Shown piece after piece: positions 41,611 through 44,382 of a DNA stretch of 44,382 nucleotides. The notes under the pieces are model-generated. The model did not search any database and was not told the DNA's origin. It saw only the letters and a list, made by a program, of their open reading frames with translations. This stretch comes from Desulfovibrio sp. (lineage in GTDB: Bacteria; Desulfobacterota; Desulfovibrionia; Desulfovibrionales; Desulfovibrionaceae). A program made the position numbers and the translations under genes. Within the stretch, counting starts at the first letter, position 1; the number at the start of each line of letters is the position of its first letter. The DNA is taken from assembly GCA_031273845.1 (NCBI GenBank), contig JAISRC010000001.1, positions 1 through 44,382 of the forward strand, read 5' to 3'.

Positions 41611-41705
41611 GGCCTGCGCGGGTTTGCGGGCAAACCCGCGCAGCGAGATTGGAGCCGGCGGGTTTTGCCCGCCGTAAGCGGCAATCTCAAGCGTAAAATG
41701 CTCTA
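41611..41705 (+). repeat. Structured intergenic element B, copy 2
   Basis: Perfect 13-bp stem CTGCGCGGGTTTG (41614-41626) with CAAACCCGCGCAG (41631-41643), then GATTGGAGCCGGCGGGTTTT, GCCCGCCGTAAGCGGCAATC and the end GCGTAAAATGCTCTA. Same layout as 13-106. Read on the minus strand its first bases, TAGAGC, give the autotransporter stop codon. Confidence 0.82.
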
Positions 41706-44382
41706 AAACTCAAGTTTCAGATGCAGGCTGCCGGTCACGCCTTCGCGTTGTCCGGTATAGCCCTGGACGCCGAGATCAATGCTCAGGGGAATAGATGCCG
41801 TGGGCCTGAAGGAAAGACCGAATTCACCGATCCCCGTTGATCCTTCCAGGGTCGGGGCATCAATGCGGAAGCTGTCCGTCGTCGCCCGCGCCTTGCCGTC
41901 GAACTCATGCTCATAGGCGGCTCCGACATAGGGGCTGAAATACTCGTTCACAGCATAGGCAAAACGACCGCCAGCCCGTATACGGTGAGAGTCGACGGCA
42001 TCAAAGTGTACCGGCTCGCCCGTAGACAGTTTGACGGAATCGCCCTCCTGCCGGGTCCAGAAGTATTTACCGTACAGGTCGAGAGAGGCTGCGTCCGTGA
42101 TGTTCCATACATAGCCCGCTCCAAAATGCAGTCCGTAATACAGGCTCTCGGAATCGTAATCCGCCTTGCGGCCGTTGGTGTCGCGCAGGTCTGAACTGGA
42201 AAATTCGCTTTCCACCCGGCCCATGCGCGCCGCGGCTTCGGCATAGAAATGGCCCGGCCCGGTGTCGATAAATGCGAAGTGGCCGAGAATGCCGCCGCCG
42301 ACATATCTGGTGTCGCTGCCGCCGTGCGCCGATGCGGCATTGGAAAAGGAATTGTAGGTGTCATAGTCACCCAGGCCGTACTCTAAAGAAGGCGCCGAGG
42401 GTCAGGCGTCCGGGGGTGAGGTCTTGGCCGAGGGACAGGCCGGCGAGGAGGGAAAAGCCGGAAACATCAACATGAGAGCCTGTATTGTAACGCATACGGC
42501 CTCCGCTCACTGTGCCGAAACCGGCCAGCCCGGAGCCTTCCCGCGCCGCTCCGACTTTCGCTGCGTCAACGGCGCCTGCTATCCCCTGATCAGCCAGAGT
42601 GTCCGCACCCATGATCATCAGTCCCATACCGCCCAGGAATCCTTCGGACAGGGCCTTGGTCTGTTCCATGAGGCTCATGGAGGCGACGGTGGCGAGCAGT
42701 TCATTGCCTTGTGTATAAATGTTGAAATCATAGCGCAGGGTCGCTCCCGACTGTCCCTGTACTCTTGTCGAGGCGGGTGAGGCGAGCTGGTTGCGGGCGC
42801 TGAGAAGCGTTACCGTATCTCCGGCTTTCAGGAGAGTACGCGAACCTTCAAAGCCCAGATAAACCTCGCTGCCGTCAATGTCGGCATCGCCGGCTACCTT
42901 GAGCATGATGCCGCCCGCCGTGAAGTATTCGGGCAGATAAAAATTCAGGTACTCGAAGTTTCCCAGGTCGCCGCCCACCGTGATGCCGCCGGCCTTGGGC
43001 CTGCGGATGTTCAGAGTGTTGCGTCCGGTATCAAGGTTGCCGCCGGCGTAATTGTTGTACGCGCCGAAAACGTCCCCCTCAACATTAGTCGCCCCCGCCA
43101 GAGTGACTGTGTTGTTGAAGGCGCTCAGCGACGGTGTGTAAGTAGAGAGGAAAGATGTGCCGGCGCCGTAAACGCTGCCTTGTATGTCGCTGTCGATGAT
43201 GTTGACCGTATTGTTATTGGCCGTTGCCGAGCTTGAAGCGTCTTCAGCGTCGGCATAGCCGCCGTAAACGTTCACGTTGGTAGTGCTGTTGCCGCTTACT
43301 GTGACCGTGTTGTTGTCGGCCGTCGCTGAGTTTGATTCACCATAAGCAAAGGCAAAGCCGCCGTAAACGCCATCTTCTTCGACTGCACTGCCGCTTACTG
43401 TGACCGTGTTGTTATCGGCCGTTGCCGAGGTTGATTCACCAAAAGTGTTGGCATAGCCGCCGTAAACGCCCCCGCTTTCAATAATGCTGTCGGTTACCGT
43501 GGCAGTGTTGCTGTCGGCCGAGGTCGAGCCTAGTTCACTCTCGGCATAGCCGCCGTAAACACCCCCCCCCATTCGTCATTAATAATGCTGTCGGTTATCG
43601 TGACCGCGTTGCCGGCGACCGAGGCCGAACTTTCTCTACTAAAGGCAAGGGCACCTATAACAAAACCTTCGACTTTGCTGCCGGTTACCGTGAGAGTGTT
43701 GTTATCGGCCGTTGCCGGGGCCGATCTTGATACATCATAAGATTCAGAATCGGCATAGCCGCCGTATACGTTAGATTCGACTCTGCTGTCGGTTACCGTG
43801 ACTGTATTGTTATCGGCCGTTGCCGCCGTTGCCGCGCTTGATTCACAAACAGCATAGGCATCGCCGCCGAATACGTATCCACTGACCGTGCTGCCGCTTA
43901 CTGTGACCGTGTTGTTGTCGGCCGTTGCCGGGCTTGATTCACCATCAGTATAGGCATTGCCGCCGTAAACGTTCCCTTCGATAGTGCTGTTGCCGCTTAC
44001 TGTGACCGTGTTGTTGTTGGCCGTTGCTGAGCTTGATTCACCAGCAGTATAGGCATAGCCGCCGTAAACGCGACCTTCTTCGACCGCACTGCCGCTTACT
44101 GTGACCGTGTTGCTGCCGGCCGTTGCCGGGCTTGATTCACCAGCAGTATGGGCATTGCCGCCGTAAACGTCGTATTCGATAATGCTGTTATCGCTTACTG
44201 TGACCGTGTTGTTGTCGACCGTTGCCGCGCTTGATTCACCAGCAGTATGGGCATAGCCGCCGGAAACATCGTTACCGATTTCGCTGCCGGATATGGTAAC
44301 TATGTTATTGCTGATTACGGTCGACGAGCCGCTGACGTCTATGAATTTCACTCCGCCATATACAGATCCGGTTATGCCGGGA
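41703..44382 (-). CDS. Autotransporter adhesin, 3' part, with two frameshifts (5' end outside the window)
   Basis: Surface protein of type V secretion. At least 13 units of about 31 residues (VYGGYAxTxGESSSATADNN-like, then TVTVSGS) form a probable beta-solenoid passenger, followed by a spacer and an autotransporter beta-barrel ending in the typical Phe (HLKLEF). The frame is broken twice. A 9-G run (minus strand; C run 43562-43570 on plus) shifts the frame between repeats, where 7 or 10 G would restore it. At about 42384-42387 an extra base splits LTLGAFF from EYGLGDYDTYNSF inside the barrel. All parts otherwise match one protein. The start lies beyond 44382. The TAG stop is shared with element B copy 2. 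Confidence 0.85.
43105..44382 (-). repeat. Tandem coding repeats of about 90-105 bp in the autotransporter
   Basis: The plus-strand phrase AGCCGCCGTAAACG and a following GTTGTTGTCGGCCGTTGCC phrase recur about every 90-105 bases with small changes. They encode VYGG(Y/N)A and ATADNNTVTV. At least 12 units are visible in the window. The near-identity between units should promote recombination and copy-number change. Confidence 0.85.

Follow-up and report, generated by a model that had tools for sequence, protein, structure and literature searches.

The reading frame of a Desulfovibrio autotransporter gene shifts exactly at nine consecutive G residues and shifts once more within the barrel region, at a site lacking any homopolymer. 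Our best explanation, to which we give slightly better than an even chance, is a slippage-prone tract of the phase-variation type in a redundant type Va autotransporter of a D. cuneatus relative, with the assembled copy doubly broken. The window, that is the whole stretch of DNA analysed (44,382 bases), is the entire contig C141 of genome G000, an assembly of 2.6 Mb in 191 contigs. The nearest named relatives, Desulfovibrio sp. Hs463_bin41 (G005) and Desulfovibrio cuneatus DSM 11391 (G007), belong to the same genus; records with sample codes like that of Hs463_bin41, Im510_bin21 and Pq454_bin54, are presumably of termite gut origin. The gene is encoded on the minus strand and is cut off by the contig end at 44382, so that its N-terminus, where a Sec signal peptide would be expected, is missing; a search of the other contigs did not find the missing 5′ part. 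At least three further autotransporter genes are present in G000. The features of the locus are as follows.

43533..44381, minus strand: upstream passenger piece in frame B, 283 codons, running off the contig end and including the tract
43203..44267, minus strand: passenger repeat array of ~99-bp V-Y-G-G units
43562..43570, minus strand: 9-G tract and site of the frame change, nine C on the plus strand
42370..43569, minus strand: remaining passenger with linker and start of the barrel in frame A, 400 codons
42383..42390, minus strand: second frame break, a single surplus base within the conserved motif G-A-F-F-E-Y-G (GAFFEYG)
41703..42382, minus strand: remaining autotransporter beta-domain with the stop codon, frame B (PF03797, TIGR01414)

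The barrel matches PF03797 (E 2.8e-15) and TIGR01414 (E 6.5e-10), both past their cut-offs, which bears out the initial annotation of the gene product as an autotransporter. Ahead of this C-terminal beta-domain lies a passenger built from repeat units of ~33 residues, and searches of the passenger against Pfam and NCBIfam gave no family match. An AlphaFold2 model, built with five homologues, predicts regular beta coils across the passenger with a pLDDT of ~90, consistent with a beta-solenoid; its best fold matches are weak ones to pertactin, antigen 43 and Hap (best E 0.01). Repeats and model thus describe a beta-helical passenger in front of a beta-domain, as in type Va autotransporters. Passenger and barrel form one intact ORF in the paralogues G000:C72 and C174, and are separated in the assembled sequence of the window by two frame breaks. 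Membership of this family suggests that the protein may serve as an adhesin.

Translation of the three minus-strand frames places the first frame change precisely at the 9-G tract, the sole G/C run of at least 8 within the window. Beyond the tract, frame B continues for ~11 out-of-frame codons to a stop at 43530-43532. Both the count of nine G at 43562-43570 and the exact coincidence of tract and frame switch were claimed in the initial annotation, and both hold. The tract had also been placed between two repeat units; it lies instead inside one unit, immediately ahead of the recurring V-Y-G-G motif, at a position where other repeat units carry two or three short residues. Because interior long G tracts occur at only ~0.02 per kb in G000, it is unlikely that one falls exactly at the frame change by coincidence.

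A single frame change had been described, and the second, at 42383-42390, was overlooked. It lies 1.2 kb downstream of the tract, is opposite in sign to the first and returns the frame to B, in which the rest of the barrel is read from 42374 to 41706. The motif in which it falls is read through without a break in all 23 distinct homologous genes inspected, comprising those of the same genome (G000:C72, C174 and C163), genes in G002, G004, G005, G007, G008, G009, G011, G013 and G014, and genes in MAGs of other lineages. The proposal that 7 or 10 G would restore the frame is therefore correct for the two passenger pieces and fails for the barrel: since the second break lies between them, no tract length alone connects passenger to barrel in the G000 copy, and no length of the tract yields a full-length product, so that the assembled sequence offers no ON length. 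The assembled copy is thus predicted to be inactive for two reasons, and a change of the tract alone would not switch it on. A tempting homopolymer may conceal further damage; any paper repair of the frame needs checking along the whole gene.

Despite the two breaks, no additional stops occur inside any of the three pieces. Compared with paralogue C72, the barrel piece has a pN/pS of 0.16, and compared with others ~0.3 (range 0.16-0.36), values that indicate purifying selection. Because the pieces are open and the barrel appears to be so constrained, the inactivation of the gene would be recent or reversible.

Frame changes at G tracts recur in relatives of the gene. In paralogue G000:C163 the frame changes at an 8-G tract and then again at a 7-G tract, and in a homologue from a different MAG (L114, JAISMF010000078.1) it changes exactly at a 9-G tract located elsewhere in the passenger. 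A dnaJ gene on the same contig as this homologue carries a 9-G tract in frame, as does the autotransporter gene G008:C220. The tract is not conserved in the family, since tracts of at least 7 are absent from 17 further homologous genes. A different lesion is found in the homologue G009:C67 (L080:4965-5771), where a plain in-frame TGA stands a few codons past the barrel motif; this nonsense codon points to decay in the family. Among autotransporter tracts of at least 8, three of four are shifted, compared with one clear case in ~82 other coding tracts, a post hoc comparison on a small sample (Fisher p 1.5e-4, or ~0.0025 by a hand count that excludes the window). Within that small sample, tract-linked frame changes recur in relatives of this gene and almost never in other genes, and the nine G of the window reach the length, about eight or more G in coding sequence, typical of phase-variable loci.

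We then considered G tracts across the genomes. G000 holds 57 G tracts of at least 9 and 131 of exactly 7, from which ~7 of the longer class would be expected (geometric decay from the 7-G count, with the ratio of ~0.2 seen in the analysed stretches). Twelve of the 57 are found no more than 100 nt from a contig end and probably represent poly-G sequencing artefact; the ~45 that remain still represent an excess of long G tracts. Poly-G rich junk of up to 29 G stands at the ends of contigs C82, C106, C109, C110, C115 and C129 (L048, L055, L057, L058, L059 and L064). In D. cuneatus, an isolate, 50 tracts of at least 9 against 474 of 7 fit simple decay. Codon-usage scoring on either side of each tract, in the analysed stretches of G000, G005, G007, G009 and the L113/L114 MAG, finds ~80 coding G/C tracts of at least 8 in frame. 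In-frame 9-G tracts occur, for example, in G000:C22 and C107. Outside autotransporters, frame changes were flagged in C68 and C106 of G000, in G005:C55 and in lnt of G005. The two in G000 were put down to genes on the other strand or to the start of a gene, and lnt is the sole clear case. This gene, which is usually essential, has a long homopolymer at the matching position in both species: C9 with the frame intact in G000:C191 (L074:3001), and G12 with a changed frame in G005:C153 (L189:1958). The shift of lnt at a 12-G tract means that the length or frame of a tract in an assembly can be deceptive.

Two broader accounts of the long tracts were rejected. Long G tracts do not serve as general marks of contingency genes in G000, as most coding ones are in frame and lie in ordinary genes. 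Loss of mismatch repair was likewise dismissed as their source: MutS domain I was not found in G000 and is present in 13 of 14 other genomes of the genus, while MutL is present, and the MutS absence is probably an assembly gap because the conserved mutS neighbours, encoding a HIT protein and LolA, are missing from G000 too. The intergenic sequence gcattttacgcttgag (window 41683-41698, downstream of the autotransporter) recurs beside a 13-G tract in G000:C132 (L065:3002-3040), and a 9-G tract in G000:C4 (L029:3001) has a similar left flank. gcattttacgcttgag looks like a dispersed intergenic repeat.

In the phase-variation reading, slipped-strand mispairing at replication would lengthen or shorten the 9-G tract, so that the passenger would be either continuous or terminated ~11 codons past the tract, and a truncated product without the barrel would not be displayed on the surface. 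We infer that the tract may vary among cells and that switching may be selected. The switch proposed in the initial annotation is upheld insofar as the gene encodes an autotransporter, the frame change coincides exactly with the tract, and breaks occur at 7-9-G tracts in two other family members while nearly all other genes with such tracts keep their frame; it does not stand insofar as tract length alone was to reconnect passenger with barrel, given the second, non-repeat break in the latter. Further repeats that support the reading are (AC)23, (AC)13 and (AC)19 in the leaders of the autotransporter genes G000:C72, G000:C174 and G005:C2. The same data are also compatible with progressive decay, the tract being a hotspot for mutation. 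The gene would then be a young pseudogene of a redundant autotransporter, broken by two independent indels, one of them at a hotspot tract, and no switching would be selected. The position of the second break outside any repeat, the two breaks of paralogue C163, the nonsense codon in G009:C67 and the three or more further autotransporter genes of G000 all favour such decay, as does the precedent of Campylobacter capC, whose inactivation is independent of tract length (PMC7168839). Yet all pieces remain open and the barrel is conserved, and breaks occur at G tracts in three family members and almost never in other genes. We regard decay of this kind as possible, though rather unlikely.

An improbable explanation is that the tract length and the surplus base are both artefacts of a metagenome assembly, arising from mixed strains or homopolymer errors. 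The fragmentation of G000, the poly-G junk at contig ends and the shifted lnt of the related MAG G005 are in keeping with such errors. However, ~25 other coding tracts of at least 8 in G000 are in frame, from which we conclude that tract lengths in this assembly are generally right, and the second break does not lie in a homopolymer, outside of which short-read indel errors are rare. Programmed or transcriptional slippage, in which RNA polymerase or the ribosome slips on a 9-G tract of fixed length and both breaks are recoded to give some full-length protein, would account for the opposite signs of the breaks and for the open, conserved pieces. It is very improbable, as the second break has no slippery site or homopolymer, homologues need no recoding there, and the tract is missing from most of them.

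The (AC)n leaders extend well beyond the autotransporters. Of 15 genomes of the genus, 12 contain long (AC)n tracts (L075:8563-8608, L071:81-106, L078:7325-7362, L212, L214-L223 and L233), with copy numbers of 8-58; D. cuneatus has none. Among 16 distinct cases, 11 have the repeat immediately behind a GG-N10-GC element of the kind seen in sigma54 promoters (chance ~0.12), and in most a G/C-rich hairpin comes next, then a strong hairpin (GGCCCTG...CAGGGCC) with a T run, resembling a terminator. Downstream lie autotransporters and also glycosyltransferases, permeases and signalling proteins, the latter three read from translations. The leader has no match in Rfam at gathering scores, and a search of the window for such an element found none. 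The only other dinucleotide tract of at least 6 copies in the 1.42 Mb examined is a (TC)16 repeat in G005:C75 (L204:194-225), which has a similar sigma54-like element in front. G000:C28 (L242:1-118) and G000:C174 (L071:1-118) share a promoter and (AC)13 leader at their start and then diverge, so that the leader is either present twice or joins alternative downstream sequences. We tentatively suggest that in the Desulfovibrio relatives of this genus simple repeats vary the autotransporter repertoire by two routes, through poly-G in the passenger and through (AC)n behind sigma54-like promoters and before a terminator-like hairpin, the latter tuning or switching transcription, including that of other operons. 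This by-product may matter more than the tract finding.

A literature search for repeat-driven phase variation in Desulfovibrio found no relevant paper, a result that does not prove its absence. Should tract length differ within the population, it would be, within the literature searched, a first indication of repeat-driven phase variation of a surface protein in Desulfovibrio, and would extend to this lineage a contingency strategy best known from mucosal pathogens.

The arrangement of the protein resembles that of the type Va autotransporters pertactin, antigen 43 and Hap, in which a beta-helical passenger precedes a PF03797-type barrel, although the fold match is weak (E 0.01) and, unlike theirs, the passenger here consists of V-Y-G-G repeats without a Pfam or NCBIfam match. 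As in a survey of homopolymeric tracts in prokaryotes, a homopolymer in a coding gene permits inactivation by frameshift (PMC2831843). The same survey finds an over-representation of poly-A/T tracts close to 5′ ends and in general none of poly-G/C tracts (PMC2831843), whereas the long poly-G described here lies well inside the passenger. Loci of this kind are already known, and the closest comparison is with CapC and CapD of Campylobacter, autotransporters whose genes carry poly-G tracts of ~9, exist as both intact and broken copies and show documented variation in tract length (PMC7168839). Campylobacter is an unrelated lineage in which the tract keeps its position throughout the genus (PMC7168839), whereas in the G000 family the position differs among members and the tract is mostly absent. 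The comparison cuts both ways: the poly-G tract of capD lies in coding sequence, so that its length sets the frame, while the inactivation of capC is ascribed to lineage-specific decay (PMC7168839).
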